A stretch of 64,000 nucleotides of DNA. It comes from Helianthus annuus (Eukaryota; Streptophyta; Magnoliopsida; Asterales; Asteraceae). Of this stretch, positions 1-38,660 are shown piece by piece. The stretch lies in NCBI RefSeq assembly GCF_002127325.2, contig NC_035437.2:166686263-166750262 (forward strand), in the 5' to 3' direction. Made by a program: the position numbers and the translations under genes. The notes beneath the pieces were generated by a model that saw only the letters and a program-made list of their open reading frames with translations, made no database searches and was not told the DNA's origin. Within the stretch, counting starts at the first letter, position 1, and each line of letters begins with the position of its first letter.

Positions 1-287
1 AGGTGCTTATATAAGGAGAATTATGTAGAGGCCATGAGGTTACACACTTAATCAGACAACCTAATCATAACATCATCATTATCATCGACCTCCCTCTCCA
101 TAGCCGATTCCCTTGTCGGTTTTCTTAGTCACCATCATCAGTCAGCACCCTAAGGAGGAACCAGATCACACTGACAATTATGTCTAACGGGATGTCATCT
201 TCTCTGACTGGATTCTCCACTGCACTGTCTGCTGTAACATGTATGTTTTCATGTTTTCCATTATGATTAAACAGAACTGATCCAACA
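1..287 (+). repeat. 5' LTR (partial) of first Copia element
   Basis: It matches 4600-4886 base for base except for five substitutions and ends in CCAACA, just before the primer-binding site. It includes a TATATAAGG motif near position 9, a plausible core promoter. Confidence 0.93.
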
Positions 288-289
288 TG

Positions 290-301
290 TGGTATCAGAG
301 C
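290..301 (+). other. Primer-binding site (initiator tRNA-Met type)
   Basis: TGGTATCAGAGC two bases after the LTR end is the usual plant Copia and Gypsy primer-binding site, complementary to the 3' end of initiator tRNA-Met. The same motif follows the 5' LTRs at 7387 and 20048. Confidence 0.9.
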
Positions 302-824
302 ATATGTTGATTAGTCAGTTCTGTTTTCTATCCGTAAATCTGGATTAAAACTGGAAAGCAGGTTTTAAAACGATAATTAAATTCGTTTTTCTGTCATCCG
401 AAATCATTAACTGTTCGATTTCTGTCATCCGGAATGGCATCTCGGATGACATGTTCATTCTTATGTTACTGTCCGAGATCATAATGTTCAAGTATTGTTT
501 AAATGATTGATAAATTCCCAGATTTCGGATATAGTATTAAGGTTATTTTGAATTTAGGGTTCATCATGTTCTTAGTTAAAATTCGAAATTTCCTTTATGT
601 TTAGGAATATAATTTGAATTGTGGAATGTTTTCCTAGTTTTGATCTAATTTTATCTAATAAGCTTTTCGAAATCTGTTAATAGGATAAACAGATTATGAT
701 TTTCGAAATTTTCTGATAAAATTAGATCAATGATAAAATAGGAAACTCTATCACAATTCCTAAGATTTCGAATTTTCTGTTATGTTTTCACATTAACAGC
801 TGTAACAGCTTGAAGAACACATTA

Positions 825-1165
825 CGGATGATCATTTCGGACGAACATTGTTCGCCCATTACGGATCAGCAACCGTCTGATCATTCCGGATGAACATTGT
901 TCGCCCATTACGGATCAGCAACTGACCATTTCGGATGAATCTCGGACTAAGCATTACTATCCGAAATCATCCGAAATCCATCACGGATCATCAAGAACTG
1001 ACCATTTCGAATGAATCTCGGACTAAGTATCATTATCCGAAATCATCCGAAATGACTCGACTTATGCGTCTTGAACACATCCGAAATCATTCGAAATCAT
1101 CCATTTCGGATAGTCCGAAATGATTCGAAATTAGTCATTTCGGATGAATCCAAGACATGATTCAT
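825..1165 (+). repeat. Leader array of short TCCGAAAT / ATTTCGGATGA repeats
   Basis: This stretch of the first Copia leader is made of many imperfect copies of TCCGAAAT and its complement ATTTCGGA, with recurring ATCTCGGACTAAG and ACATTGTTCGCCCATTACGG blocks. The mix of both orientations makes it rich in potential hairpins. No protein-coding content is convincing; the 62-codon open frame at 935-1123 is a by-product of the repeats. Confidence 0.75.
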
Positions 1166-1334
1166 CCGAAATCATGAGTGTTCATAAAATTTGGCAGTGT
1201 ATGTGAACTAAAAGTTCGATCCGCGCTAACGGGTGGTTTGCTATTAAATAATTGGTTTTGTAATTACTTAGTTAATTAATCAGAATCAGATAATGTTTTA
1301 CAAAACCAAAATGGCTTAACTTGAATGAACTTTT

Positions 1335-1599
1335 GATGTATCATTTCTGGCCAAAGCTGACTTGATACATCTACTTATCATTCAACTATTACGAAAGCTA
1401 TGTTGAGTGTGCATCATAAACGTGAATGTCTTAATATCTGGCCAAAGCTGATTTAATTCCTTCATAGATGGCATACTTAACAAGTGCATAACTAAAGTGA
1501 TTGTCTCAATTTCTGGCCAAAGCTGACTTGTTACAATCATTTTGCACACATGCTTAAATGATTACACTTCTGTTCAAAGCTGATTTGTCTTCGTTTAAG
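1335..1599 (+). promoter_or_regulatory. Array of four leader hairpins with a shared loop (first Copia element)
   Basis: Four inverted repeats each present a loop built around TCTGGCCAAAGCTGA. Hairpin 1 has arms 1335-1343 and 1363-1371 (GATGTATCA/TGATACATC). Hairpin 2 has arms 1423-1434 and 1453-1464 (TGAA and TTAA paired around an internal loop). Hairpin 3 has arms 1498-1509 and 1528-1539 (TGATTGT and CAA around a 2x2 internal loop). Hairpin 4 has arms 1553-1566 and 1586-1599 (CTTAAATGA and ACA, one G-U pair). Stem sequences differ between copies but pairing is kept. The loop of the first three contains the self-complementary hexamer TGGCCA. The array lies just upstream of gag. A role in RNA packaging, dimerisation or translation is inference. 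Confidence 0.75.
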
Positions 1600-1741
1600 T
1601 AGAATTTTAACTAAGTCAATTATTTTGATGTTAGTAATAGACAATATCACAACTTCATAATGTAAAATGGTCATTATTTATGCATGCCTTAGTTTAACAT
1701 GCCCTTAGATCACATTAGAACTTCTTCCTAAGTATCATAAC

Positions 1742-2407
1742 TTGCTCATCCTATTTCCACTATCAGCACCAAATCAGGGGATTCCACCTTTGACTGGTGA
1801 TAACTTTGCTGCATGGAAGGATGCCCTCATGCTTACACTTGGATTGCTGGACTTTGATTATGCTCTAAGAGAGAATAAGCCAGCGGACCTTACCACTCAA
1901 AGTACTGCTGCTGAGCAGATAGTTCATGAAAAATGGACTAGGTGTAACCGCATGTCTCTCATGTTCATGAAGCAGTCCATCAGTAATGCAATCAGAGGAG
2001 CCATTCCTGATTCTGAAGATGCTAAAACCTATTTGGAACATGTGGAGGCGCAGTTCAAAGGGACGTCTAAAGCACACGCTAGTACCCTTATTCTCAAGCT
2101 GGTGACAACTAAGTATGATGGGAGGAGCGGCATTCGCGAGCACATCATGATGATGAATGACATGGCCAATAAGCTGAAGGGGCTGGAAATGGAGATCAGT
2201 GATGGTTTCCTTGTTCATTTTGTCATCACTTCGCTTCCTTCATCCTTTGAAGCATTCAAGATCAATTACAACACTCAGAAGGACAAATGGACGATGAGTG
2301 AGCTGGTCGCTACGTGCGTACAGGAGGAAGAGCGTATGGGGATGGATCGCCCTATTGATGTTGCTAACTTCACCACCTCTACAATCAGAACCCATTATAC
2401 CTCATGA
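1742..2407 (+). CDS. gag: Copia gag polyprotein segment (UBN2-type capsid), truncated
   Basis: The reading frame encodes a Copia-type gag capsid region. Near the N-terminus it has PPLTGDNFAAWKDALMLTL, the usual opening of plant Copia gag proteins, followed by the helical UBN2-like domain to about residue 205 (EEERM). The CCHC zinc knuckle that normally follows is absent. The frame runs through the deletion junction near 2370-2385 and stops at 2407. The first codon here is TTG; the first in-frame ATG is about 29 codons later, so the true start is uncertain. In life Gag packages element RNA into cytoplasmic virus-like particles. Confidence 0.8.
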   Translation: MLILFPLSAPNQGIPPLTGDNFAAWKDALMLTLGLLDFDYALRENKPADLTTQSTAAEQIVHEKWTRCNRMSLMFMKQSISNAIRGAIPDSEDAKTYLEHVEAQFKGTSKAHASTLILKLVTTKYDGRSGIREHIMMMNDMANKLKGLEMEISDGFLVHFVITSLPSSFEAFKINYNTQKDKWTMSELVATCVQEEERMGMDRPIDVANFTTSTIRTHYTS

Positions 2408-4121
2408 CGAAGGCACATCAAACGCTCAAAACAAAAACAACGATGAAACCGATAATCCACTCAGGAGGTCATCTAGGCAAAGAAGGCCTACTAATTGGGA
2501 TGATTATGTTACCTACCTGACTGAAATGGATCCCGAAAAGCTTAATGATCCTATCTCTTACAATGAAGCCATTAGCAGTGATCAGTCTTCTGAATGGAAT
2601 AAAGCAATGATTGAAGAGCTTGAATCCATGAAGAAAAATGACGTTTGGGATTTGGTAGAATTACCCAACGGTGTCAAACCCGTAGGATGCAAATGGGTGT
2701 TCAAAACAAAACTGGATCCGAATGGTAACGTTGAACGCTACAAAGCGAGATTGGTTGCAAAGGGCTACACTCAGAAAGAGGGAATTGATTATCAAGAGAC
2801 ATTTTCACCTGTCTCTCATAAAGATTCATTAAGGATCGTCATGGCCCTAGTAGCTCATTTTGATTTAGAGTTACATCAGATGGACGTTAAAACCGCTTTC
2901 CTTAACGAAGACTTGGACGAAGATGTTTACATGAAACAACCTGAAGGCTTTAAACCCGAAGGTCAGGAGCAGCTAGTGTGTAAGTTGAAGAAATCCATTT
3001 ACGGGTTAAAACAAGCATCACGTCAGTGGTACCTCAAGTTTGATGAAGTCATGAAGAAACAAGGTTTTATGAAGAATCAAGTGGATCAATGCACCTACCT
3101 CAAGATGAGTGGGAGCAACTTTACTATACTTGTCCTTTACGTAGATGATATTCTATTGGCAAGTAATAGTTTAGACATGTTGCATGAGTCGAAGCGGTTA
3201 CTCTCGCATTACTTCGACATGAAGGATCTCAGAGATGCTTCTTACGTCATTGGCATCGAAATCCACCGAGATAGACACAAAGGGATCTTAGGATTGTCCC
3301 AGAAGGCTTACATACATCGTGTCCTTACACGGTATAACATGCAACAGTGCAAACCCTCCGTCGCTCCAGTAGTTAAGGGAGATGTTTTCGGTTCATTCCA
3401 GTGTCCGACAACAGAAGTTGAGAAGGAGCAAATGAGCCAGATACCTTATGTGTCAGTAGTCGGGAGCCTGATGTATGCTCAAGTCTGTACTCGCCCAGAT
3501 ATCGCTTATATTGCTGGAATGCTAGGCCGTTATCAGTCTAATCCTGGCCTAGATCACTGGAAAGCAGCTAAGAAGGTACTTCGATATCTGCAAGGGACGA
3601 AAGACTATAAACTGACTTATAGAAGAAGTGATCATTTAGAAGTGGTGGGCTATTCTGATTCTGACTTTGCCAAATGCAAAGATGATAAGAAATCCACTTC
3701 GGGCTATATCTTTATGTTAGCAGGCGGCCCTATTTCATGGAAGAGTCATAAACAACAGTTGACCACAACTTCCACAATGATGGCAGAGTACATTGCTGTT
3801 TATAATGCAACCTGTCATGGAATGTTGCTTAGAAATCTGATCACTGGACTCAAAGTCGTTAATTCCATTTCTAGACCATTGAAGCTTTATTATGATAATT
3901 CAGCTGCCGTTAGTTTCTCGAACAGTAACAGTTCGACTGGAGCTGGTTTATATCTTGATACAAAATATCTGTTCGTACGTGAACGAGTTGAGGAAAATAA
4001 TCTTTGTATCGAGTATATTAGTACTAAAGATATGCTTGCGGATCCGATGACTAAAGGTCTCCCTCCTAAGGTTTACGAAGAACATGTTCGGAATATGGGA
4101 TTTAGTAAAGACCTTATTTAA
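2385..4121 (+). CDS. pol: Copia reverse transcriptase and RNase H (pol remnant, uninterrupted)
   Basis: An open frame with no stops covers the whole RVT_2 reverse transcriptase (from WNKAMIEELESM, with IYGLKQASRQW and the catalytic LYVDDILLAS at about 3135-3164). The RNase H domain follows (GYSDSDFAKCKDDKKSTSGY, ending LADPMTKGLPP). The first residues (RRSSRQRRPTNWDDY) are the linker that normally follows integrase, so protease and integrase have been deleted. The open frame starts at 2298, but the part before about 2385 overlaps gag in another frame. It is not in frame with gag, so the two would not form one polyprotein without recoding. Confidence 0.9.
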   Translation, partial: SEPIIPHDEGTSNAQNKNNDETDNPLRRSSRQRRPTNWDDYVTYLTEMDPEKLNDPISYNEAISSDQSSEWNKAMIEELESMKKNDVWDLVELPNGVKPVGCKWVFKTKLDPNGNVERYKARLVAKGYTQKEGIDYQETFSPVSHKDSLRIVMALVAHFDLELHQMDVKTAFLNEDLDEDVYMKQPEGFKPEGQEQLVCKLKKSIYGLKQASRQWYLKFDEVMKKQGFMKNQVDQCTYLKMSGSNFTILVLYVDDILLASNSLDMLHESKRLLSHYFDMKDLRDASYVIGIEIHRDRHKGILGLSQKAYIHRVLTRYNMQQCKPSVAPVVKGDVFGSFQCPTTEVEKEQMSQIPYVSVVGSLMYAQVCTRPDIAYIAGMLGRYQSNPGLDHWKAAKKVLRYLQGTKDYKLTYRRSDHLEVVGYSDSDFAKCKDDKKSTSGYIFMLAGGPISWKSHKQQLTTTSTMMAEYIAVYNATCHGMLLRNLITGLKVVNSISRPLKLYYDNSAAVSFSNSNSSTGAGLYLDTKYLFVRERVEENNLCIEYISTKDMLADPMTKGLPPKVYEEHVRNMGFSKDLI

Positions 4122-4443
4122 GCATATTGTACTAGCTTATGTTTTATGATTAATGAAATGTCCTCAGTTTGATTTTGTATGTCTTTTAGAATATGTTCAA
4201 CCGGTGTAATGGCATATAGACAAATAAGGTTACAAATCAAACAAAGGGCTTATGCGTATTTTGATCATGATGATTAGGTTTTAAATTAAGACTATAGTAT
4301 GACTAATGGGGTCCTGAGTCGCATAATGATTCAACGGCTGTATTTCTCTGCTATAGTACTTGTTTAAGGCTAAAATGAGGGTTAACTCCTGATCAGGCTT
4401 ATCTAATACTCATGGTAAATGATTACTCGACTAAGTGGGAGAA

Positions 4444-4886
4444 TGTAAGATTAAATATGTTATGTGTTAATATTTAATCTTGTAGCCATTATAATCATTT
4501 ACGTAATATAGATCAAAATATATTATAACCTATTAAATAAATTAGTTGGTAATTGTTGATGGACTATATTACCCTTATTAACTAATTAGGTTTCCTCCTG
4601 GGTGCTTATATAAGGAGAATTATGTAGAGGTCATGAGGTTACACACTTAATCAGACAACCTAATCATAACATCATCATTATCATCGACCTCCCTCTCCAT
4701 AGCCGATTCCCTTGTCGGTTTTCTTAGTCACCATCATCAGTCAGCACCCTAAGGAGGAACCAGATCACACTGACAATTATGTCTAACGGGATGCCATCTT
4801 CTTTGACTGGATTCTCCACTGCACTGTCTGCTGTAACATGTATGTTTTCATGTTTTCCATTATGATTAAACAGAACCGATCCAACA
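4444..4886 (+). repeat. 3' LTR of first Copia element
   Basis: A 443-bp LTR from TGTAAGATTAAATATG to GATCCAACA, preceded by the purine tract AAGTGGGAGAA. The same tract precedes the 3' LTR of the second Copia element, so the two belong to one lineage. Confidence 0.93.
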
Positions 4887-5911: not shown

Positions 5912-6919
5912 ATGTCACTCATGTTATGAACTCTATCATGGACCATGTCATAATTTCACTCATGTTATGAACTCTATCATGAGTCATCGTTAAATTTATC
6001 ACGCATGATTGTAAAACTTCTATTAAACCCATTAAGGGAAAGCGATTAGGTTTCAGTTTTTATTAAATTCCCTCTAAAAATGAAAATTTTATTAAATACA
6101 TGGTTTACATAATGTTTTATAGAATTTATATCAATTCAATAAAGTATGAAGTAAAAACTTAATGATATTCATTTTGTTATGCTTCATATGAAGACATACC
6201 ACCATTGTCATGCAATTTCTTTTTGGTACCATTGTCATGCAATTTCTTTTTGGTGGTCCAAGCAATTTGTCGGATATGTCCAACTACATGTGTAACTATA
6301 CAAAAACTAATTAGAAGGAAAAAGAAAAAAAATAAAAGTAACAGAAGTAATGAGGGAAATACCGACCATTTTTTTTTGAAATCAGATGGTTATAACATGT
6401 TTTTCTTAGAACGTCATAATTTTGTTAACAAACGAACTAGCCAATACTAAACTGTTTGGAAGTGTGTTCTAAATACGTTACATTGTTACGTCTATTAATG
6501 AAAACCTGGGTCTTGTAAACAGGCGGTTTAGGTCGGCTTGGCTACTAGGTCAAAATGTGTTCAAGTCATACTCGGTTCGTGTTAAAACAAGTTATAAGCA
6601 AAAAAAGGTTCATATTAAAAGGGCCATTTAAAAAACGTATCAATCTGGGTTAGGTCAAAAGTCAAAACGAGTTATGATCAAAAAGGACTCGATTTGAAAT
6701 GAGGTGTTATTGAAATAAGTTCACCTCCTATATCTTTTTTTAATCACACCTAGTGGCAATGGGTAGAGGTGGTGGCCACAGAGGCATGGTGGTGGTGTTG
6801 CATCGATGCCATTGGTGGCAGCGACGATCACGAGGTGGTGTCAGTGGTAGAGGCGATGACGAGTAGTGGTGGTGGTGGTGCTGGAAGTGTGGCAGTGGAG
6901 TAACTTGAGTAGATTAGTT
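5912..6919. other. Intergenic, old repeat debris
   Basis: 5912-6050 resumes the repeat interrupted by the LINE, with a tandem duplication of the block TCACTCATGTTATGAACTC. 6770-6900 is a GGTGG-rich stretch of low complexity. Open frames here are short and have no recognisable domains. Confidence 0.5.
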
Positions 6920-6924
6920 TGAAC

Positions 6925-7384
6925 TGTTAGAAATAACCCGTTGATGTGGCCTTAGGGATCATTTGGTAACATTACCAATATGACATAACTAGTCCCCGAC
7001 AATTACTTGATGGTAGTAATTGTAATTATTGATTAGTATTAAGGGGCAATTATGATTTCCCTTTAGGTACCATTAATAGAGAAAACATAGAGTTTTATAA
7101 CGGATCACCATTCATGACCATTATTCATTGATCTTTATATATTGATAACAAGTGGTGATCAAAACTCTAGAGTAGAACGCCAATACTAAAAATACTAAAA
7201 TTATCTCTAAGGTGATCCATCAACCTAAGGTACCATAACGGGAATCATGGCTTCATCTTTATTCTCAAAGATAATCATCCCTACAAGTAAGTATCTCTAT
7301 CTTGGTATATATATTTGGATTATGATTGAATAAACATGATTAGGGTTCTACGTTTTTAACCCATGTTTAAAGATATAATCAACA
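6925..7384 (+). repeat. 5' LTR of second Copia element
   Basis: 460 bp, TGTTAGAAATAACCCG to AATCAACA. Immediately preceded by TGAAC, the target duplication. Confidence 0.95.
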
Positions 7385-7386
7385 TG

Positions 7387-7398
7387 TGGTATCAGAGC
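7387..7398 (+). other. Primer-binding site of second Copia element
   Basis: TGGTATCAGAGC two bases after the 5' LTR, complementary to the initiator tRNA-Met 3' end. Confidence 0.9.
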
Positions 7399-8592
7399 TA
7401 TGTTGATTATATCAATCTTATATGATTATGATTTCATGAATTAACTGTGCCATCAGTTTCACCCTTTTGATGTCGATCTTATAATTTATTGCCATTGAGA
7501 TCTTGATGGTTCACTATATTTTAACATTGAGATTGGTTGATTCTAAACCGTGCGATGAACTGATGATGATGGTTATATATTAAATACAAATGGAATGAAA
7601 AGAAAAGAACGAGTCCTCCAAGGGTTCTTTTATGTACTGCCGCCACTGCTTTTTCATCATAACTAATGAAAGTTAAAAAAAAAAAAAAAAAAAAACTAAA
7701 TTTTGATATGTGATTTTGTAAAAATCACTTACTGGATCAATTGGAACCAAACATGTTTTTTACCTTTTTTATAATTTTGATAAAGAATTATTCATCATGA
7801 TTGGTTCTATATTTGAACTTTGACATTTTGAAGATTTTTTTAATGGATTACGATGTCATCATTTAGTTCAATTTGAACTTGTTTGAAATTTGTTTTATAC
7901 GAGAGGAATTGTTATGATTTGTTCCATATCCTTTTTCATATTTAGCTTTGACTTTTCAAACTAAATAAAGATGAGTATATGAAGTATTTGATTGAACTTT
8001 TACATGTTTATGTTACTTGTGAATAAAATAGATAGATATGAGATTTTAATGATTAGTTAAGTAAATAACTTAACCTTTTATTTACATGTCTTAAAATCTA
8101 AGTTTTTGACATAGAAATTAGAATTATATAATGGTAAATTTCAATGTATAGTTAGATGATTAATCAAATGGTATATCCTTTTGGTTTGACATTGAAATTT
8201 TAAATGATACTCTTTTATGTAATTATGTGTATGATAATGAACCTAAAGGTAAGTTGTAATTAATAATTTTTCAATGCACTTGATTATGTATTCATGCATT
8301 CTTGAATTAATCGGTTACAAAGTCCTCATGAATTAATGTTTGAATTTAATGATTGCAATTAATGAATTGATTATAGAAATTCTAGACTATAATCCATGAA
8401 CTGAATAGTTGATTTTGTGCCTAAATGTTTGTACACTTAAAGCCCTTTATATGCAACTTTTATGTGAGATTCTTATTTTGTGAATGGCCCAACTTTAATT
8501 TATACCATTTTATGTGATTATGTGTATTGTTGGATAATGAAACCAACAACGAATTGTTTGATGATGCACATAATAAATTATCAGCCTAATTT

Positions 8593-8640
8593 ACATAAAT
8601 ATTTCATTTCTGGCCCAAAGGTGTTATGTTATATTTATGT
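8593..8640 (+). promoter_or_regulatory. Hairpin with TTTCTGGCCCAAAGG loop upstream of the main array
   Basis: Arms 8593-8602 and 8631-8640 are a perfect 10-bp inverted repeat (ACATAAATAT/ATATTTATGT). Its 28-nt loop contains TTTCTGGCCCAAAGG, close to the loop of the first Copia element rather than to the seven hairpins that follow. Confidence 0.55.
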
Positions 8641-8671
8641 GTTTTACTTTATTATTTATGTGTGTTCATGA

Positions 8672-9200
8672 TACATGAATTTTGGTCAAAGCCAAAGCGA
8701 AGCTAGAGTTCATGTAGAACATTGAGACAGTCTATATTTATGTGTGTTCATAATATGTGAATTATGGTCAAAGTCAAAGCGAAGCCAGAGTTCATGTAGA
8801 ACACTAAAGACGGTCTATTATTTATATCGTTCATAATGCTGAATTTTGGTCAAAGCCAAAGCGAAGCCAAAATTTAGGTAGAACATTAAGCCGAGGTTTA
8901 TTATTTTTTTATCGTTCATAATGCGTGAATTTTGGTCAAAGCCAAAGCGAAGCCAAAATTCAGGCAGAACATTAAGTTGGTTTTATTTATTTATGTTCAT
9001 AATACATGAAATTTGGTCAAAGCCAAAGCGAAGCCAAATTTCATGTAGAGCAATAAGTCAGTTTATTATGTATGTTCATAATGCATAAATTTTGGTCAAA
9101 GCCAAAGCGAAGCCAGATTTATTGTAGAACATCAAGACAATTTGTTATTTATGTACGTTCTTTGAATTTTGGTCAAAGCCAAAGCGAAGCCAAAATTCAG
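8672..9200 (+). promoter_or_regulatory. Array of seven leader hairpins with a near-invariant 17-nt loop
   Basis: Seven units of about 80 bp each carry an inverted repeat closing on the loop TCAAAGCCAAAGCGAAG (one change in copy 2). Arms are: 8672-8685/8703-8716; 8754-8767/8785-8798; 8839-8849/8867-8877; 8923-8935/8953-8965; 9003-9016/9034-9047; 9084-9095/9113-9124; 9163-9172/9190-9199. Copy 5 pairs TACATGAAATTTGG with CCAAATTTCATGTA, while copies 4 and 7 pair TGAATTTTGG with CCAAAATTCA, which is a compensatory change. Copies 1 and 2 use G-U pairs at several changed positions. Loop conserved and stem covarying is the pattern of a selected RNA structure. It lies in the leader before the decayed gag. 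Confidence 0.85.
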
Positions 9201-9225
9201 GTAAAATCTTAAATTAGTCTGTTAT

Positions 9226-11378
9226 TTTGGTGTTATAGTAGACTATATCTTCAATATAATAATTTGTGTATGCCTTACTTGATTACCTCATAATGTAAAT
9301 CACTCCAAGCTTCTTCTTAGGTTTGTATCTCATCTATTTCATCCACTCTAATTTCAAAACCTAAAATGTTTTGCTTACTAAAGAGTTTCTACAAAATTTG
9401 CTCTTGTTGAATTGTTGATTATTTCTTAAGATATGATAATCCTACTGCTCTTTTCTGATAAAAAGTATTACAGCAGAAAACTAGAGCATGACTAGTGGGA
9501 TAAGTCAACCATTATATCTCTTATGATAATCAAGAACTCATTTCATTATTGCTATCATGGGAGCTATTCTAGATTCTAAATTTCCTAAGACTAATTTGTT
9601 TTTTTTTTGGAAGAATCAAAATAACTCCTAAGCCGCATGCATTACTCTAGATTCTTACTATAAAGTTTGTGGCATATGTGAATACATCATAATGTACAAT
9701 ACCATCACCCATAATTTAAAGGTTTACACATGGAAATCATTACACTTTTCCGATGCATTACATATAACTTTTCCATTAATACCATAAATTTTCTTAAGAA
9801 TCAACTATAACACTCAAGAGTACCAAAGGAAAATGAGTGTGTTGATTAGCAGCATATGTACAGGAAAAGGAATGCATGAAACTGGAAAATTAGATGATGT
9901 TCATCTCACCGCCACTAAACCTGAAAGGAGGATACTTTTAAGATTCAGAGATAGTGTACAACTACTACTTCCAGCTATAAGTTTCTTCAAAGGAAAGTCT
10001 CACAGCAGGTTTATGCCATTAAACTAGGCATGAGCATCGAGACTATCCATAATTCAATGAAACAGCTGGCTAAGATAAGTAGTAAGATATTTATGATATT
10101 TAAGTCTGCTAATGGTAATATTCTAACCAACATATGACCGGTTGATTTTAGTTCTATGTGTTTCCTTACCAGAAATCAACAAATAATTAATATGAGAGTT
10201 AGTGGCAAAATTTTATGTTAAGACTATAAGAACCATAATAAACTGTTTTATAATTGGGCTTAATGATACCTTATATATTCTGTAGATTATTCAGAATTTA
10301 GTATCAATATAAAAGTTGCATTATGACAGTTGTGAGGTTTGCATGGTTAAAACAAAGTCACTTTTACCTTAAACTCTCATATTATTTGTTATCTCAATCT
10401 GGATAGAAACCTTCTAAGATAGAACTTGATGATGCTACATTTTTCACAACCTTTGTTATCATGAAAATGAAAATTTAACAAAAGAAAAATGAGACTTACA
10501 AATTCCATCCATTAAGACCAAATTTCATGAGAAATCATGACTAGGTTAATGAAGGATGAAATATTATCAAATTTCATTCTTAGTGACTTATGAACATGTG
10601 TTATAAGCCTTAATATTTAAATGGTTAAGGGAATAAATTAAGTTCCATTAGAAGTTATATTTCATTGGAACTTATCCCAAAATGGAATATTCAGACATAA
10701 TTCATTTATCATAATATTTACTTGTATTGTCTTATATGAATTAAGGTATTAAAGAAATTAATTCATATATACTATGATTCCTTCTAAATATGTCCCTAAA
10801 ATTTTTATAACATATGGACATTAAGGAAATCAAGTCTAACATATATGACATGTTCCCACAGCACATACATCATTGAAACTTATCTTGTAGTATTCCTACA
10901 GATCTAAAAGGTTAGTGGAGTATTAAGTGTCTTAATCTTAATTTGCGAGAGTTGCAAGAGGTGGGGGAGTGAAAACTTGTTATTACCTCAATTTGCACCT
11001 CTTGTACAAGACATTGCTCCTTCACAACTTTTCTCTTTAAGAATATACTGCTACTCTAACAAAAGTTTCATTGTTGCTTAAACGCGGGCACACTCAGATT
11101 TCTTGCCAAAATTGTAATCCTCAAACAGAGAAACTACAATGAGTAACTTCTTTAATTTGTTTATCTATTAGAATTTATTGGTTTTTTAATGTTGACCATA
11201 AGCATGCTAAATTATTAAAGATTTCTAAGTCAGTGGGAGCAGTAAAAGTCCTTATCGGGAAGAGACCTATTAAATTTTACTCCGATTACACCTCTTGCGC
11301 ACACTTAGAATTATGAAAGTGATAGCAACTTAGGCAAGAGTTAATCCATAAAACTGAAACTCTTAATAAACCCAATAA
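9226..11378 (+). pseudogene. Degenerate gag region and internal sequence of second Copia element
   Basis: No long open frame. Around 9440-9640 short stretches in broken frames resemble the gag segment of the first Copia element. The 64-codon frame at 9833-10027 shows no known domain. Protease and integrase motifs are not recognisable. Confidence 0.55.
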
Positions 11379-12810
<1,432 letters not shown>

Positions 12811-13178
12811 GAGCTCATAATAAAGACGGGTCTTACTAAAGGCCTTACATAATAGCATATCGTACATATGAATGATTAGTTATTATTTTTTCCTCAATTA
12901 CACAATTTGTTTGTCTATAAATACATATGTGCACCTGATGACGTATAGACAAGAATTATACAAATTAATTTCAAAGGGCTTACCTCAGTCATTTTGGTCT
13001 TAAATTTACGTATGTTTTGATTTGGGGTTGTAACATGATTAATGGGGGTCTTGAGTTGACAGTAACTCAATGACTGTATTTTTCTGTTGCAATTTCAATT
13101 TGAAACATTGATTAATGTTTTAACTTGGCCAAACTTACTTATACTTATCACAAATGATCACTCGGCCAAGTGGGAGAA

Positions 13179-13646
13179 TGTTAGAAATAACCCGTTGATG
13201 TGGCCTTAGGGATCATTTGGTAACATTACCAATATGACATAACTAGTCCCCGACAATTACTTGATGGTAGTAATTGTAATTATTGATTAGTATTAAGGGG
13301 CAATTATGATTTCCCTTTAGGTACCATTAATAGAGAAAACATAGAGTTTTATAACGGATCACCATTCATGACCATTATTCATTGATCTTTATATATTGAT
13401 AACAAGTGGTGATCAAAACTCTAGAGTAGAACACCAATACTAAAAATACTAAAATTATCTCTAAGGTGATCCATCAACCTAAGGTACCATAACGGGAATC
13501 ATGGCTTCATCTTTATTCTCAAAGATAATCATCCCTACAAGTAATTAAGTAAATATCTCTATCTTGGTATCTATATTTGGATTATGATTGAATAAACATG
13601 ATTAGGGTTCTACGTTTTTAACCCATGTTTAAAGATATAATCAACA
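13179..13646 (+). repeat. 3' LTR of second Copia element
   Basis: 468 bp, nearly identical to 6925-7384 but with an 8-bp longer stretch after ACAAGTAA. Followed by the target duplication TGAAC at 13647-13651. Confidence 0.95.
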
Positions 13647-13651
13647 TGAAC

Positions 13652-14002
13652 CCGTTTTATTGTAGTGGGTTTTTAAGAGTTATTTATTTTGACCCGTTAT
13701 ACTTATACATTTAAATAGACCCAATTAACCTGTTTTGTAATTTGAGTTGACAATCTTTTAACCAAATCAACTCATTCTTTACTAACGTGTCATTTTTTTG
13801 AACGACCAACAAATACTATACAAGATTGGTCATCAGGACAAACCCATTGATGAAAGGTCACCCAGTGTGTTATGATTGTCACATGTACATGTATCCAACT
13901 TATGTACAGGTACATAAACTCTTCGAATTATGTTGTGGACAAACGGCTATTGATGAAGACCCAACACAACAAAAGATGTATTATTATATTAGTGTAAAAT
14001 AC
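13652..14002. other. Intergenic, no gene seen
   Basis: Continues the sequence interrupted by the second Copia element. Includes a T run followed by GAACGACCA near 13792-13806, a string also seen at the tail of the SINE-like unit near 15489. The open frame at 13826-14041 has no recognisable domain. Confidence 0.4.
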
Positions 14003-14668: not shown

Positions 14669-15002
14669 AACACAACAGAAAATCTTTTGGTTTGTTGGAT
14701 TTTTTTTAACATAAGTGCTATGTTATAAATTTTTCTTAAAATATGAATTTTGAACTATAGTGTATTTTTTTTAATCCAAAACAATATGTATGGAAGTTTA
14801 AGATTACATGTGAGGTTTGAATAAAAGATTGAATTGACGCATATAATTTAGGGGATAGACGCTAGACACGGAGTGGACTAATAATCTTATTCCATTTAGT
14901 CAAATACGGCGAGAAAGCAATCACTAGTCCACTACAAGAAAACATCATCTAAAAGTTTTGTAGGTGTAGTAAATTACTTAAGAAGTTTCTTTTTATATTT
15001 AA

Positions 15003-15421
15003 GAGTAAACTGCCATTTTGGTCTTTGTGGTTTGGTCAATTTTGCCACTTTAGTTCAAAACTTAAACTTTTTGCATCTGGGTCCCTGTGGTTTCAGTTTT
15101 ATTGCCATTTTGGTCCAAAAATGAAATTAGGTCATATTTGTCTTATAAAATCCTGTTATTTTGTCATTTTCCGCAGGGACAAAATGATCATTTCTTTTTT
15201 ATAAATAAATACCATATTTTATAAGACAAATATGACCTGATTTGCCCCTGAGGAAAATGACAAAATTGCAGGATTTTATAAGACAAGTATGACCTGATTT
15301 CATTTTTAGATCAAAATGGCAATAAAACTGAAACCACAGGGACCCAGATGCAAAAGGTTTGAGTTTTGGACTAAAGTGGCAAAAGTAACCAAACCTCAGG
15401 GACCAAAATGGCAGTTTACTC
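15003..15421. mobile_element. MULE-type foldback MITE, 419 bp
   Basis: Long terminal inverted repeats of about 170 bp begin GAGTAAACTGCCATTTTGG. The flanks are a perfect 9-bp duplication TATATTTAA (14994-15002 and 15422-15430), typical of Mutator-like elements. Non-coding. Relatives start GAGTAAA or GAGTTAA at 31121, 33955 and 39139. Confidence 0.92.
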
Positions 15422-15488
15422 TATATTTAAATTGCCTTTAATAATATATTTCAACCATTTTTTTAAATATAGTTAAATAAAAATTACT

Positions 15489-17573: not shown

Positions 17574-20043
17574 TGTAACGCCCGGCTCTTTTGTACCTTC
17601 CATTTATAGAAAGTTTTGTTCGTATTTCTATTTTTGGAAACCTTGTATTCTTGTAATCGTTCCTTTCGTTGTAATCATTATCAAACCGAGACTTGGATCA
17701 TTAATGAAACTTGTATTTTGTTACATTATTGTTGTACACATTCTATGTATGCTCGTACGTTCGACTTCGTGAATCAATCAATGTCTAATCGTTATTCTTG
17801 GAAACTATGTGCGAAACTTGTAATTAATCTAAACTTATGCATTGAACGTCTTTTGAACGAGAACGATACTTGGTTACGACATTTATACGCTTAAATATAC
17901 TTGGTTACGATCATCATGCTTAACTACACCTTATACTATGCTTTTATATCAAAACAAGTCCCTAAACTATCAAAAATGCACCTAATAGACTCAAGCATAA
18001 ACTTCAGGGGGGTAAAATGCAAAGTTATGGAACTTGCCGGCACTAGGGCGCAGCGTGACGCGAGGGTCCTAGACGTCACGCGAGCCCCTTGTTTCGGCAG
18101 AATGTGTGTTTCCTTGAGCTGCATGCACGAAATCCCATTAATCCAATTCACCCAATCACCTTTAATCCACCTCTAATCACCTCCAATCACCTTCTAACTC
18201 TTCCATTATAAATACCCACCTTCTCCAACCCATTTGACACTTTCACAACTCTCTAATCTTCACAAATTCACTCTCTAATCTGCAGTAAATCTGAGTTTTG
18301 GACAGATTCTTGTATCTTCACAAAAGTGAGTGTAACTTGCTCATTTCTTAACCAAACTACTTGGTTCTTCTTTCTAATGCTTTGTTATGTTCTTGGGTTT
18401 GAATCCTTGGTTTTTCCTTGGAAGAATCATGCTTGGATTTGCCCTAAAATGGACTAAAACTTTCTGTTTTGTTTATTATTAATCAACAACTTGTTATTTC
18501 TTATCCAACTTGTGTCTAACACATCTCACACCAATGTCCTAATGCTTACAACCTCTCTTATGGTTGGTTAAGCTTAAAAACATGGTTGAGACATTTAAAT
18601 CAGAGGTTAAAACCTCACAAACCTTCTGTTTTAATTAGGGTTTTACCCACAAGTGGTGTTCAAGTGTGAAACTTGATGTATGTGTGATGGTTGGTTTAGC
18701 CTAGGCTATCCCTTCATAAGAATCCACTCATTACTTGATGTTTTTTCTATAGATTAGTTGTTGTTATTACCTTAATACTTGTATGTTCATGACCCTCCTT
18801 GTTGTTTATAACAACAAGTGTAGTGGTGAACAATAGAGGTGCCTAAATGGAAGCTTGTTCTTCCTACCTCATGTATGTATTCTATGACACAAAGAGGTAC
18901 CTAAATGGAGACATTAATCTCCTACCTCATGCTTGAATCATAAGACTTGTAAACTATATAATATCTAAGTTATTCTATATGTATACATCTAAGTAACTAA
19001 GACTTGATGATGACTTAATAGTTATTTGTTAAGTGGACGTTACATCATCTATGACCATGCCCTTGTTACGACTCTAATGGATCTTAGAATCCATGAAATC
19101 ATACCAACTCTTTTGAGTTTCAATAGTGTCAAGAACAAGAGTTATGTGTACAAGATGATTATTTTCACCTATGTTACTTTCTATATATTTTAAAAACTCC
19201 GAATCTATAATCTTCCGTTATACGCCAAACTCACACACCTACGTTTCCTTGTGTAGAAGGATAAGGTGCTCCGAACTAATTCATCTACAAACTTGCTCTC
19301 GGAACTTCAAGTCACCACTTGTAAACCGTGAGTATACTCGAACCCATTTTTACTTTTAACACTTTGGGTGCAACATGTATTCTATATTAAACGCACTTGA
19401 CACTTGAAACTTATTTGAAACTTACTCTATCCATTTAAACATGAAACATGAAACTTGTGAATCTTGAGACTATTTTGTGCTATGTGAACGTTTAATTCTT
19501 GTGTGTAGTTCCGCCTTAACAATAGTAGCGCTATAGGAGTAATGCACCTCCCCGTTAGTCTTTGGGGTATTGTTAGGAGGAGACATATCAACCTCCCGTG
19601 AAACTTTGGGTTAGGTACTTTAACGCATTGGGAAACTTGGGCTATCACTTGGACTACGTAAACTAGCATGATTGAAACTATTTTATTATGTTCATGTTGG
19701 ATATGAGTTTTATTCTAATATGCTATGTAAACAAACTTGTATACTCGCTCTTTGCTTTTGCATTGAACTCTATTTTAATACATGTTGCAGGTTGATTATT
19801 GAAGTATGGATGAATGATGAAACAAGTTAGGGTGGACTAGATACACACCTAGATTAATCTATCATTTTGTTATGTTATGTTATGAAACAAAGTTGTTATT
19901 TCCTTTTGAATTATGTATGACATTTAGTTTTGAAATGAAATTTGAATTTAATTAAATATTGTCACATAGTGTTATGACGTCTCTAGCAATCTATACACAC
20001 TTCGTCTCATCCCGATGTTTCCGCCATCGGTTGGGGTGTGACA
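17574..20043 (+). repeat. 5' LTR of Gypsy element
   Basis: 2470 bp, TGTAACGCCCGG to GGGGTGTGACA. A TATAAATA box lies near 18208, consistent with the LTR promoter. Small open frames inside it are duplicated in the other LTR and have no known domains. Confidence 0.95.
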
Positions 20044-20046
20044 GAT

Positions 20047-20059
20047 TGGTATCAGAGCC
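20047..20059 (+). other. Primer-binding site of Gypsy element
   Basis: TTGGTATCAGAGCC three bases after the LTR, complementary to initiator tRNA-Met. Confidence 0.88.
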
Positions 20060-20265
20060 ATAACTATAGGGAATTAGGAAAATTGTCATGCTTTTGCCCT
20101 AATCTATAGTTCTAGGAATTTTGCCTCTTATTTGTTGTTTAAAACTTTGTACTCTACCATGCATGCTTCCTAGCTATACTTTTGATTAAATTTATGTGCC
20201 TTTCCTAAGGCTAACACGAATACACTTATGATATTTTTATAATCTTGTAACACCAACGAGAAGAA

Positions 20266-20506
20266 TTTACCAAAATAGGCGTGAAACCCACAATTTGGTA
20301 AACGACTCTCACTCTACCATTAATCTATTTTTGCACGAAATTTCACCGTTAAGCTAGGAGTGACATCCACAACTTAATGGTAATTTCCATTTCAACTCTA
20401 GTGGACCCTCGTCAAAGTGTCGAAATTTTATTTTGGCCGACGAGTACCAACCACATTTAGGGTACGAAATTGTCAAGTTAGGGGTGAAACCCGCATCTTG
20501 TCGATT
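20266..20506 (+). promoter_or_regulatory. Array of three leader hairpins with a conserved 19-nt loop (Gypsy)
   Basis: Hairpin 1: TTTACCAAA (20266-20274) pairs perfectly with 20294-20302. Hairpin 2: ACCGTTAAG (20345-20353) pairs with CTTAATGGT (20373-20381), extended by GAAATT/AATTTC after a 2-nt bulge. Hairpin 3: CAAG (20474-20477) pairs with CTTG, extended five pairs past one mismatch. All loops are exactly 19 nt and alike: ATAGGCGTGAAACCCACAA, CTAGGAGTGACATCCACAA, TTAGGGGTGAAACCCGCAT. Inside the loop a mini-stem covaries (GGA/TCC against GGG/CCC). A further 9-bp inverted repeat (20585-20593/20616-20624) has a different loop. RNA function is inference. Confidence 0.75.
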
Positions 20507-21055
20507 AAGTCCCATTCCTCGATTTTTATTCTCGCCAAAGTCCCGAATGTTTCAATCATTTAGAGATGTGTAGTAACCGGAAGGGTAAGATACCGTTAGT
20601 CGCTTCTCGATGAGAGTATCTTACTTATAGGCCAAAGCACAATATCTCTAAAACGAAAGAACTTTCGACCCACTTTGGAATAGTCGACGTTTCTCTACCC
20701 GAAACAATCCGATGTTTTATTGAGCCTCTCTTTTATGTATCTCAATTTATATGTGATTTTATACTTGAACGTTCATTCATTTCAAAATGTCGTTTTAAAC
20801 ATTTCACACGCTATCGCAATCACAAACAATAATAATCCCTTGTGAACAAACTAAATTTACAATGCTTTCATCCATTCATGTTATGCTATGTGGAATCCAT
20901 GATTATGCTATATGAGATGTTTAAACATTTGTGCTATGAAACTTTTATGCAATGAGTCTTTTGTGCCATGAACCCTTTATGCTATGTGATCAATTTCATT
21001 TTTCTAAAACAAGCATTATGACCAAGTCTCACCTATTCGTTCTTTTGAATCTTAG

Positions 21056-21730
21056 ATGTCTTCTCGTCACTCCAACGCGTCTAGGAAGTCAAAGTCTCGC
21101 TCCACCAAGAAGATGATGGCTTTCATGGCCGATCAATTTGCGCGTGTCGTTCCAAAGGTCATTTCTGAGATTCGAGCCTCTGAAACTCCTCACTCATCCG
21201 TCGACTCTAAGGTCGAAATTCGCAACCCCGCCTCGTTCAACTTTAAGCACTTCTCGTCGTGCAATCCCAAGCCATTCACCGGCAATGATGGGGTGACCGC
21301 TATGCTCGAGTGGTTTGACAGCATAGAGGTCACATTCATCAATAGCGATTGCCCTGACGAACTCAAGACACGTAGCGCAACCGGGGTATTCCAAGCCCGC
21401 GCTCTTGAGTGGTGGTCGAATGAAAGAAACATCCGTTCGAACGAGTTGGCTTATGTGTTGACCTGGGAGGAGACTAAGGCCCTAATGATGGATGAGTTCT
21501 GTCCTCCGCATGAGCAAAGAAAGTTGGAAGAAGAATTTTGGGTTTTAAAGCAAGTTGGTGATGACAACCTAGCTTACACCACCCGTTTCAAACAACTTAG
21601 CTTCATCGTCCCTCACCTTGTTTCAACCCCTGATCGCAAGAATAGCAAGTACATCAATGGTTTGCCCCTACCATGCGAGACACCATCGAGGCAGCCAAAC
21701 TCGATAGCATCGAAGCCATTTACCGTTTAG
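21056..21730 (+). CDS. gag: Gypsy gag (capsid region), frameshifted from pol
   Basis: It starts at an ATG after TTAG at 21051-21055. The chromovirus gag capsid domain is clear: [17 protein letters not shown] near residues 62-78, then LEWWSNERN and [20 protein letters not shown], up to KYINGLP near residue 200. After that the expected capsid C-terminus ([20 protein letters not shown]) is found in another frame, starting at 21673. A one-base change around the CCCC run at 21666-21669 is the likely cause. Known relatives have one continuous gag-pol frame, so I read this as a mutation or assembly error rather than programmed recoding. Confidence 0.88.
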
Positions 21731-24700
21731 CCGCGTCCTTGAACAACAATCGCGTTCGCGATAAGCAAGCCGCAAACCCCGTTTCTTCTAAGCCAGCCCA
21801 TCAAATTACCCAACAATCGAATAACAATAGGGGAAAGAAGCGAACGCAATCCAACCCCGTTTGTAACGCGATTGTGCCGCCTGTTAACCCAAATCCTATC
21901 GCTCCTGTTGATGCCCCCAAGCCGTACACTGGGATTCACCCCAAGTGTACCACTTGTAACTTCCATCATCCCGCTAATGCTAGGTGTCGTCGTTGTGAAA
22001 ATTGCAACCGTTATGGTCATACCATCAACTATTGTTGCCAAGGGCAGCCAGCTCAACCAGTTCAGCAAGCTCAGCCAGCTCAGCAAGCACCACAAGCTCA
22101 GCAAGCGCCACAAGCTGCACCTGCTCCTCAGAACGCAAGACCACCTAGGGCATGTTTCAAATGTGGGGATGTTAATCATCTTCGTCCCCAATGCCCTCAA
22201 TGTATCCAAGAGCAGCAGCAACCTCCTCGTGGACGCGCCTTCAACCTAAACGCGAATCAAGCACGCAACGACAATGATGTCGTTAATGGTACGTTTCTTG
22301 TTAACCATCTTTATGCTTCGATACTATTTGATACTGGTGCGGACAAAAGCTTTGTGTCCTTAGAATTCGAATCATTGTTAAATTGCACACGCTCTAAGCT
22401 ACCTAAGTCGTTTTCCGTCGAAGTCGCCAATGGCAAGTCCATCTTAGTCGATTCCATTCTCCTCGATTGTCGTCTTACTCTTAACGAGCATGCTTTCTCT
22501 ATTGATCTCATACCCATGCAATTGGGTAGTTTCGACGTCATCATAGGAATGGATTGGCTTCAAAAGAATCATGCCGAAATCGCTTGTCACGAGAAATTCG
22601 TTCGCTTACCTCTTCCCTCTGGTGATGTTTTACACGTTTATGGAGACCGACCTTCAAGGGGACTAAAGCTGATGTCCTGCACACAAGCAAACAAGTACTT
22701 ACGCAAACAGTACTTTGCCTTTTTAGCCCACGTGGTGGAAGAAAAAGGCAAGGGAAAGAGCCTAAGTGATGTTTCAGTGGTGCGTGATTTCCCTGACGTC
22801 TTCCCTGAAGAATTGCCCGGTCCTCCTCCTCCTCGATCTGTTGACTTTCGTATTGACCTCGTACCTGGTGCGACTCCTGTCGCCAAGGCTCCTTATCGTC
22901 TTGCACCTTCCGAGATGCAAGAATTGTCTTCTCAGCTTCAAGAACTCCTCGATAAAGGTTTCATTCGTCCAAGTACCTCTCCTTGGGGTTCTCCTGTGCT
23001 CTTCGTTAAAAAGAAAGATGGTTCTTTCCGCATGTGTATCGACTATCGTGAGCTCAACAAACTCACCGTTAAGAATCGCTATCCTCTCCCGCGTATCGAC
23101 GACCTCTTTGATCAACTTCAAGGCGCTACCTGTTTCTCCAAAATCGATCTTCGTTCTGGCTATCACCAACTTCGAGTCCTCGAAGAGGACGTTCCCAAAA
23201 CTGCTTTTCGCACTCGCTATGGACATTACGAGTTCGTGGTTATGCCCTTTGGCTTAACCAACGCACCCGCTGTGTTCATGGATCTCATGAATCGTATTTG
23301 TAAACCATACTTGGATCGCTTTGTGATCGTCTTCATTGATGATATTCTCATTTATTCTAAATCTCGAGCCAATCATGAGCGTCATCTTCGTCTCATACTT
23401 GAACTTTTGCGTGCTGAACGTTTATATGCTAAGTTTTCTAAATGCGAGTTTTGGATCAAAGAAGTTCAATTCCTTGGGCACGTTGTTAGTGAAAAAGGAA
23501 TCCATGTCGACCCTTCAAAAATCGAAGTCGTGAAGAATTGGACCGCGCCTAAATCACCTTCTGAAATCCGTTCTTTCTTAGGATTGGCGGGTTATTACCG
23601 TCGATTCATCTCAAATTTTTCAAAAATCGTCGTTCCACTCACTTCGTTGACTCAAAAAGAGAAACCTTTTGCTTGGGGTCCTGAGCAAGAGGAATCTTTT
23701 CAAACTCTCAAGGACTTGCTTTGCAACGCTCCTATTCTCGCTCTTCCTGATGGGAATGACGATTTCGTGGTGTATTGCGATGCCTCAAATCGTGGTCTTG
23801 GTTGTGTGCTCATGCAACGAGACAAAGTCATCGCTTACGCCTCTCGTCAACTCAAAATACATGAGAAGAATTATACTACCCACGACCTCGAGCTTGGCGC
23901 AGTTGTTTTTGCGTTAAAGATTTGGCGACACTACCTATATGGTACTAAGTGTGTGGTTTTCACCGACCATAAGAGCCTACAACACATCTTTGACCAAAAA
24001 GAACTCAACATGCGACAGCGACGTTGGGTGGAATTACTCAACGACTACGACTGCGAGATTCGCTACCATCCTGGTAAGGCGAATGTCGTGGCCGATGCAC
24101 TTAGTCGTAAGGCTCATGTAGATGTCATTCGTTGTTTTCACATCTCGAGCGATCTTCACAATCGCATTCGTGAAGCGCAGTACTCCTCTATCAATGAAGG
24201 TTCCATGGCTGTAGAAATACGTGGAGCATCTGAAAGTCAACTCGTTTCAAAACCTGATGGTCTTCTCTATTGTTGCGATCGCGTTTGGATACCAGATCGT
24301 GACAATCTTCGTGACCTTATCATGAACGAAGCACACAAATCTAGGTACTCAATTCACCCGGGCGCTGACAAGATGTACCATAATCTACGTACATCCTATT
24401 GGTGGCCTGGTATGAAGAGAGATATTGCTGTGTACGTTTCCAAGTGTCTTACCTGTTCGAAAGTCAAAGCCGAGCACCAACGACCTTCTGGTCTACTCGA
24501 ACAACCCGAAATTCCCGTTTGGAAATGGGATAGCATTGCGATGGACTTCATAACTAAACTCCCACGTACACCTTCTGGTTACGATAGCATTTGGGTAGTC
24601 ATTGATCGTTTGACTAAGTCCGCACAATTCATTCCCATTCGCGAGGATTTCAAGGTTGAACGACTTGCTCGTGTCTATACCAATGAAGTCATACGCCATC

Positions 24701-25590: not shown

Positions 25591-25624
25591 ATTTCGGGAC
25601 GAAATTTCCTAAAGGAGGGGAGAC

Positions 25625-28097: not shown

Positions 28098-28102
28098 TAC
28101 TT

Positions 28103-32264: not shown

Positions 32265-38660
<6,396 letters not shown>

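Follow-up and report, generated by a model that had tools for sequence, protein, structure and literature searches.

Why should the leader of a plant Copia retrotransposon carry the same hairpin many times over, and what is it that selection holds in place there? The question is raised by 64,000 nucleotides of Helianthus annuus DNA (the window), in which a sequence-only reading had pointed to seven tandem RNA hairpins in the leader of a Copia element, here called E2. Our computations, which compare two elements in this one window, show tandem hairpins of the sense RNA that share an apical sequence and whose stems are free in sequence but paired, at a homologous place in E2 and in a second, diverged Copia element, E1.

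The E2 array spans positions 8648 to 9203 and consists of seven tandem units of about 82 nt each. The hairpins lie on the + strand at 8672..8716 (unit 1), 8754..8798 (unit 2), 8837..8880 (unit 3), 8922..8966 (unit 4), 9003..9047 (unit 5), 9082..9126 (unit 6), and 9159..9203 (unit 7). All seven proposed units could be mapped, and the earlier description of them held in detail: the 17-nt loop TCAAAGCCAAAGCGAAG is identical in 6 of the 7 units, with a single change in copy 2, copy 5 has 14 perfect pairs, copies 4 and 7 share the stem arms TGAATTTTGG/CCAAAATTCA, and copy 1 keeps 14 pairs, three of them G·U. Unit 6 is the weakest, with three mismatched pairs. The inventory itself was incomplete, since it missed a further unit of E2 (unit 0, 8592-8641) and the whole of the E1 array (1321-1609). 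A search of the 64-kb window for the loop with up to 3 mismatches returned 9 matches (7 in the array and 2 elsewhere, with 3 mismatches each), compared with 0.16 expected, and 9 matches were reached in 0 of 100 shuffles. The array plainly grew by tandem duplication. A coding repeat was considered and rejected, because the start-to-start distances of 82, 82, 86, 81, 79, and 77 nt break the reading frame.

Pairing in the E2 stems is extensive and specific to the register. Standard pairs occupy 91 of 97 stem cells across all seven units (93.8%), and pairing drops to 17 to 51% once the 3' arm is displaced by 1 to 3 columns. Both sides have changed in 3 of the 14 stem pairs and 6 pairs are invariant; when the columns of the seven units were shuffled 500 times, the observed covariation measures were reached 13 to 35 times. 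Within the seven E2 units alone, covariation is thus moderate. Stronger evidence came from swapping 3' arms between units, for which the total duplex energy was equalled or bettered in 6 of 5040 permutations; with the hairpin centre moved by 10 to 40 nt, the mean energy was -0.4 to -5.4 kcal/mol (versus -13.1 kcal/mol) and the arm-swap effect was gone. Fold z-scores for copies 1 to 7 were -4.1, -2.5, -3.3, -5.5, -7.6, -1.6, and -3.4, respectively, which makes copy 6 a weak folder. A covariance model built from the seven units and searched against the 64-kb window recovered the same seven at 64.5 to 74.6 bits, whereas the next + strand match scored only 16.9 bits; the better matches on the - strand, which reach 33.1 bits, come from reading the same palindromes in reverse. 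In pairwise comparison the units differ by 1.7% over the loop, by 19% and 23% over the two arms, and by 36% and 42% over the flanks and spacers (figures that include alignment error), which indicates that the units are old duplicates in which the loop has been held.

The leader of E1 carries four hairpins between 1321 and 1609, also on the + strand. Unit 1 (1321..1385) folds better than all of its shuffles (z = -6.5; 0 of 1000 fold as well), and units 3 (1490..1552; z = -2.7; 15 of 1000) and 4 (1547..1609; z = -3.4; 3 of 1000) fold better than nearly all of theirs; unit 2 (1415..1470) is weak (z = -0.7; 225 of 1000). Four TTCTGGCCAAAGCTGA-like copies lie within 1343-1592 of the E1 leader, one per hairpin. 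A unit of this sub-type is also present in E2: unit 0 (8592..8641, + strand; z = -3.4, matched by 5 of 1000 shuffles) adjoins the seven-unit array on its upstream side and is built of an 11-bp helix, a 2x2 pyrimidine internal loop, a 3-bp helix, and the apical sequence TTCTGGCCCAAAGG.

In these five E1-type units (units 1 to 4 of E1 and unit 0 of E2), 47 of 50 helix cells pair. The 2x2 site between the outer and inner helices has pyrimidine mismatches in 4 of the 5 units, and only 2 of its 10 cells are paired, both in E1 unit 1. In the register derived from the folds, the true assignment of 5' to 3' arms was the best of 120. That register was set by hand, MAFFT having placed E2 unit 0 and E1 unit 1 one base off, and because a hand-set register favours a unit's own pairing, we added a free-register test and random five-site sets. 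With the register free, the true assignment was again the best of 120 at each of five arm lengths (14 to 30 nt), with mean energies of -7.7 to -15.3 kcal/mol for the true assignment versus -2.2 to -6.6 kcal/mol. Taken by itself, the 5' arm of E1 unit 2 pairs slightly better with the 3' arm of unit 3 (-13.5 kcal/mol) than with its own (-12.4 kcal/mol). Among 400 random five-site sets, rank 1 of 120 was obtained in 6, and the mean energy of -11.0 kcal/mol was reached in 1. Pairing is therefore unit specific beyond what swapped arms achieve in both kinds of unit (6 of 5040 in E2; 1 of 120 in the E1-type units).

The flank downstream of E1 unit 4 aligns with the flank downstream of E2 unit 7, which places the two arrays at the same position in the leader. 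The apical motif TGGYCAAAGC is exact in 9 of the 11 array units (3 of 4 in E1 and 6 of 7 in E2) and has one mismatch in the other two; its exact form occurs nowhere else in the 64-kb window outside the two arrays. E2 unit 0 has the motif with an extra C and is absent from the matches with at most 1 mismatch. The E1 stems are wholly different from the E2 stems and are still paired; the E2 covariance model found no significant match among the E1 units (best, 11.2 bits, E value = 4.6, for unit 4). The kinship of the two arrays rests on place, motif, and architecture. In the one relative that could be compared, it is therefore not the case that stems were lost while a linear repeat was kept: E1 retains the motif together with different, still paired stems, with the qualification that its unit 2 folds no better than shuffles. 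Taken together, the arm swaps, the pairing kept in E1, and the G·U bias described below support the earlier suggestion of selection on RNA structure, and the suggestion that the loop is also constrained in sequence is borne out by its low difference relative to the flanks and by the retention of the apical motif in E1. As a separate matter, the palindrome TGGCCA is present in the loop of 3 of the 4 E1 units, and by eye the E2 loop has none of this kind; kissing-loop dimerisation was rejected as a shared function because the palindrome is present in the E1 loop only.

The kind of mismatch tolerated in the stems indicates the strand on which the constraint acts. On the + strand, which is the sense strand of E2, the 97 stem cells comprise 79 Watson-Crick pairs, 12 G·U pairs, 0 A·C pairs, and 6 other mismatches. 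Counted as distinct position/types, there are 8 G·U versus 0 A·C (two-sided sign test, P value of about 0.008, by our own arithmetic). The E1-type units add 2 G·U and 0 A·C, in a register that was taken from RNA folds. A dyad maintained at the DNA level, or template switching, would yield G·U and A·C equally, so the ratio of 12 to 0 places the constraint on the sense RNA.

The two elements that carry the arrays differ in what is left of their coding regions. In E2, the 5' LTR (6925..7386, + strand) and the 3' LTR (13179..13648, + strand), each delimited by alignment to the other, differ by 3 mismatches and one 8-nt gap over 470 columns. The sequence-only reading had placed the array between the primer-binding site (PBS) and gag of a Copia element, and this holds for E2, with a PBS-like site at 7387 and a gag remnant at 9551..9853 (+ strand; tblastn with E1 Gag, E value = 5e-6, 32% identity, 2 stops). 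A reverse transcriptase (RT)/RNase H remnant at 11406..12787 (+ strand) extends over three frames with 11 in-frame stops in three successive segments; the RT/RNase H remnants were matched by all 4 of the database proteins tried, and a Pfam search with the longest E2 RT frame gave no match. We estimate that fewer than 1 stop would be expected since the insertion of E2 at such LTR divergence, on the assumption of no LTR conversion. Near-identical LTRs together with 11 RT stops therefore indicate that E2 had already lost its coding capacity when it last inserted, and that it moved in trans.

E1 has LTRs at 2-287 and 4601-4886 that are 98.6% identical over 286 comparable nt, the 5' LTR being cut by the window edge. 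Its gag (predicted exon 2, 1767..2404, + strand; Pfam Retrotran_gag_2, PF14223, 2.3e-20) is joined almost directly to RT (2298-2407), and the RT/RNase H region (2406..4118, + strand; PF07727, 5e-77) follows with the protease and integrase part missing. No integrase part was found in E1 (1-4886) with P0072 residues 68-320, P0026 residues 1-279, or P0006 residues 1-352. We read E1, without an integrase before RT, as a deletion derivative, so that its membership in Copia rests on paired LTRs, gag, and RT. The stretches shared by E1 and E2, 2443-3329 and 3730-4450 in E1, are alike at 64.9% and 67.3% of bases, respectively. The family to which E1 belongs may be that of P0002, an RT model of H. annuus (24 member sequences; 96% identical). 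The array has been kept in order in both coding-defective elements, and the simplest reading is therefore that it acts in cis as a replication signal; for the E2 array, the simplest reading is such a signal used in trans.

Other repeats are present elsewhere in the window. A young element with 2.5-kb LTRs that are 99.2% identical (17574-20052 and 25625-28107) occupies 17574-28107, and its long gag/pol frames (21056-25590) appear by eye to be of the Ty3/gypsy type. Two large self-complementary stretches, 14992-15431 and 33955-34323 (86% over 443 columns and 93% over 370 columns, respectively), are perhaps foldback elements or MITEs, and open frames at 44923-46165 (+ strand) look by eye like further copia-like RT remnants.

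Where gag begins bears on which RNA would contain the array. No methionine occurs among the first 40 residues of the E1 gag frame, yet the conserved Gag sequence GIPPLTGDNFAAWKD precedes residue 41. Sunflower Gag models P0121 and P0122 start MSNSMSSSLTGFSSALSAVT-APNCGIPPLTGDNF and MSNSMAASLTGFSAGLSAVT-APNCGIPPLTGDNF, respectively. The first 20 residues of P0121 are identical at 18 of 20 positions to the E1 U5 frame from 180, and the remainder matches E1 gag after 1766; the local alignment score of the E1 U5 peptide with P0121 is 83, and the best of 300 shuffles scored 45. The predicted structure thus comprises a gag exon 1 in U5 (MSNGMSSSLTGFSTALSAVT, 180..240, + strand) followed by the donor GTATGT, a leader intron (241..1766, + strand) that would hold both the PBS (290) and the hairpin array and end in the acceptor TTTCCACTATCAG, and exon 2 from 1767. 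At the predicted junction, the donor ACAT/GTATGT at 241 is joined to the acceptor TATCAG ending at 1766, with a phase of 61 nt plus 2 nt. Two Bidens models (P0138 and P0149) carry LSAVTAPNGGI at the homologous junction, whereas four sunflower models (P0124-P0127) start at an inner methionine instead. GDNF is found near the start of 7 listed models; 4 of them have SAVT, and the other 3, all from Bidens (P0130, P0193, and P0196), start otherwise; these gene models were drawn from the 120 of 319 matches listed, and their starts were read as protein strings, not cDNAs.

In E2, the predicted gag exon 1 likewise lies in U5 (7247..7286, + strand; 40 nt, phase 1; peptide MASSLFSKIIIPT) and is followed by the donor GTAAGTAT. 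Its peptide resembles the N termini of H. annuus models P0188 and P0152 (MASSAKITIPTS and MASSSSSAKISIPTT, respectively), with a weaker match (score of 37, reached by 1 of 300 shuffles). No clear acceptor was found in E2 at the place homologous to the E1 acceptor; a candidate, CTTCTTCTTAG, lies 117 nt after the end of the E2 array, and the E1 array ends 165 nt before its acceptor. The sole gap between the E2 LTRs falls by eye at the predicted splice donor, which reads GTAAGTATC in the 5' LTR (7287-7297) and GTAATTAAGTAAATATC in the 3' LTR (13541-13560). The U fraction is 0.35 in the E1 leader, 0.26 in exon 2, and 0.34 in exon 1, and the U-richness of the leaders gives no clear support either way for an intron. 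In yeast Ty1, gag starts inside the LTR. Judging from the gene models and the predicted splice sites, the leader is probably an intron and gag probably starts in the U5 region of the LTR; if this is right, splicing out of the leader would confine the PBS and the array to unspliced RNA.

Further structures are predicted around the PBS. In E2, the sequence TGGTATCAGAGC at 7387, which we take to be the PBS for initiator tRNA-Met, lies in the loop of a hairpin at 7372..7413 (+ strand; -17.4 kcal/mol), and in E1 a hairpin at 269..326 (+ strand; -26.9 kcal/mol for 262-335) holds the PBS with an outer stem unlike that of E2. In both elements these hairpins are formed by U5 together with the leader; an inner CAACAT/ATGTTG is common to them, and the outer stems differ and still pair. 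The E1 leader also contains, at 380-1200, 7 copies of ATCCGAAAT and 4 of ATTTCGGAT that are mutually complementary and form a second structured module; neither of the shorter forms, TCCGAAAT and ATTTCGGA, occurs in E2 at 7387-8650.

We propose that the array acts in cis as a multivalent RNA element, namely a packaging tag on the unspliced genomic RNA of a plant Ty1/copia lineage that would be read by Gag, and we put this at a little under an even chance. In such a scheme, gag mRNA would lose the PBS and the array through leader splicing, and unspliced genomic RNA, the only form that could be primed, would keep both. The repeated loops, whose core TGGYCAAAGC can close a small GGY-CAAA-GCY hairpin, would be read by a protein, most likely the zinc-knuckle part of Gag from an intact partner element; several loops in a row would provide avidity, and such reading would gather unspliced RNA into virus-like particles. 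The array may have been retained in E2 and other coding-dead elements because it would let them be packaged in trans. More tentatively, and as a possibility that we favour somewhat less, the lineage as a whole may start gag in the LTR and splice out the PBS and array, so that the tag would be gated by splicing and coding-dead families could persist by keeping just the tag. The weak folds of E1 unit 2 and E2 unit 6 count against the packaging explanation, as do the slight preference of the 5' arm of E1 unit 2 for the 3' arm of unit 3, the lack of a significant match to the E1 units with the E2 covariance model, and the fact that yeast Ty1 packages its RNA without a comparable array; the conflicting sunflower gag starts, the lack of a clear acceptor in E2, and its weaker U5 peptide match count against the leader-intron part.

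The main rival to packaging is nuclear export, in which the array would act like a CTE or an RTE and recruit a host export factor for the intron-containing genomic RNA. A probable leader intron and repeated copies of a protein-bound loop would both fit this role, but we know of no export motif that resembles the loop, and we consider the explanation unlikely. The sources cut both ways: intron retention in Arabidopsis EVADE leaves full-length RNA mostly nuclear (PMC8892269) and the mouse elements IAP and musD each have a structured RNA for export, whereas the available passages of a review describe no export element of a plant retrotransposon and state that direct plant studies have not been conducted (PMC12786077). 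The third explanation is splicing control, in which hairpins in the leader intron would keep part of the transcripts unspliced. The array does lie between the predicted donor and acceptor (or candidate acceptor) of each element, and a coding-dead element might gain by staying unspliced; simple occlusion, however, would need neither a conserved loop nor hairpins away from both splice sites, and E2 may have lost its acceptor yet keeps its array, which makes this reading improbable. A translation element (an IRES or a shunt) that carries ribosomes past an AUG-rich leader is suggested by the many start codons (39 ATGs in E1 at 288-1780 and 84 in E2 at 7387-9800), but a leader that is spliced out leaves nothing to bypass, and E2 no longer encodes a working Gag whose translation selection could maintain; we regard it as very improbable.

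The two remaining explanations dispense with an RNA function. The untranslated leader of Drosophila copia reportedly contains an enhancer, and template switching at quasi-palindromes can create false compensatory changes, so the dyads could in principle serve as enhancer or transcription-factor sites or be kept paired by template switching. Both versions are strand symmetric, and the excess of G·U over A·C is not; moreover, the sequence of the arms varies freely, and a DNA-binding protein would not permit that. A DNA-level origin is accordingly about as improbable as a translation element. Least probable of all, by a shade, is functionless drift of a tandem repeat with hairpins arising by chance, even though tandem duplication built the E2 array and plant Copia leaders are described as varying in length by insertion and deletion (PMC2576258, in the part available). 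Drift would have to explain a constrained loop among diverged spacers and a second array with unrelated stems. It would also have to explain the pairing itself: 10 of 12 ungapped pairs are reached at 1.7% of window positions, and at least 10 in 10 of the 12 units, the other two having 9.

A packaging tag, if that is what the array is, would matter beyond this locus. It would bear on how plant LTR retrotransposons keep translated and packaged RNA apart, for which the array offers a concrete, testable signal, and on the cis signal by which dead copies are carried along by live ones, for which it is a candidate. It may also serve as a mark by which nonautonomous families and their partners can be found in sunflower and its relatives.

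Earlier work on polymorphic leaders in Tvv1, a Copia family of grape, is cited in PMC2576258. Among the matches listed from the open-licence literature, in the portions available, we found neither a plant Copia hairpin array nor a PBS-spanning leader intron, consistent with the sequence-only reading, which knew of no plant Copia element with such an array; 0 papers in that literature contained the loop strings, and the available part of a paper on active sunflower elements (PMC11728184) yielded nothing on leaders. A search of Rfam 15 with positions 6500-14000 gave 6 listed matches, 0 of which reached the gathering score. In viral contigs, 18 stretches matched the E2 17-mer (shifted by two bases) and 19 matched the E1 16-mer, with one match each, which by our own estimate is about chance; the full E2 loop 17-mer was found in 1 of the 18, once, and RT searches of the viral contigs gave no relative. 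Phages gave no match. Bacterial genomes had no match to a loop-containing 21-mer, and 7 of 39 candidate stretches in them were Copia relatives (38 to 42% identity), 2 of which contain TGGYCAAAGC, once each (L039 and L044). Two of these records were compared at the 5' end: L042 contains AT-rich short repeats (625-727) that have small inverted arms and no 17-nt loop, and L044 contains nothing alike. In two records labelled as plasmids (L045, NZ_CP115454.1, and L046, NZ_CP115302.1), the RT is 50% identical and its frame is at or near the record start. The copia-type RTs in these bacterial-labelled records (L045, L046, and L038-L044) look like eukaryotic, perhaps plant, contamination.

The available portions of papers on other systems allow some general comparisons. 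The packaging signal of MMTV has stem-loops near the PBS upstream of gag, a loop read in sequence, and Gag binding confined to unspliced RNA, and there a purine loop and the PBS bind Gag (PMC8096270). E1 and E2 differ in that a single hairpin is repeated in tandem, 4 to 8 times, in a Copia leader that is 1.5 to 2 kb long, and Gag binding is putative here. Within the Copia superfamily, the 5' domain of yeast Ty1 is likewise a cis-acting leader RNA that serves dimerisation and packaging in trans (PMC5454406, PMC8396678), and its Psi region is a precedent for packaging (PMC8396678); the portions at hand describe single hairpins with a pseudoknot and kissing hairpins rather than a tandem array or a leader intron. 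Packaging in trans has a precedent among plant Copia elements in barley BARE2, a Gag-less subfamily that is packaged by BARE1, with separate RNA pools of which one is spliced; the 104-nt intron of BARE is situated where gag ends, and the part available makes no mention of a hairpin array (PMC3735527).

Splicing also parts gag mRNA from genomic RNA in the shGAG transcript of Arabidopsis EVADE, where it removes the protease domain downstream of gag, whereas the intron predicted here would span the PBS and leader (PMC8892269, PMC12786077). A 2025 review says, in the passages available, that plant LTR elements "generally lack introns" and names Ogre and EVADE as two of the exceptions (PMC12786077). 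The RTE of IAP and the MTE of musD resemble the array as structured cis RNAs that act on full-length LTR-element RNA, but they belong to other hosts and have other sequences, and tandem arrays of one hairpin are not described for them in those passages (PMC12786077). Sirevirus motifs, finally, are repeated and dyad symmetric and lie in noncoding parts of plant Copia elements, as do the hairpins of E1 and E2; in the account available, they differ in having mostly a CGG-CCG core, in lying upstream of the LTR TATA box or near env, and in being read as DNA signals (PMC2829016).
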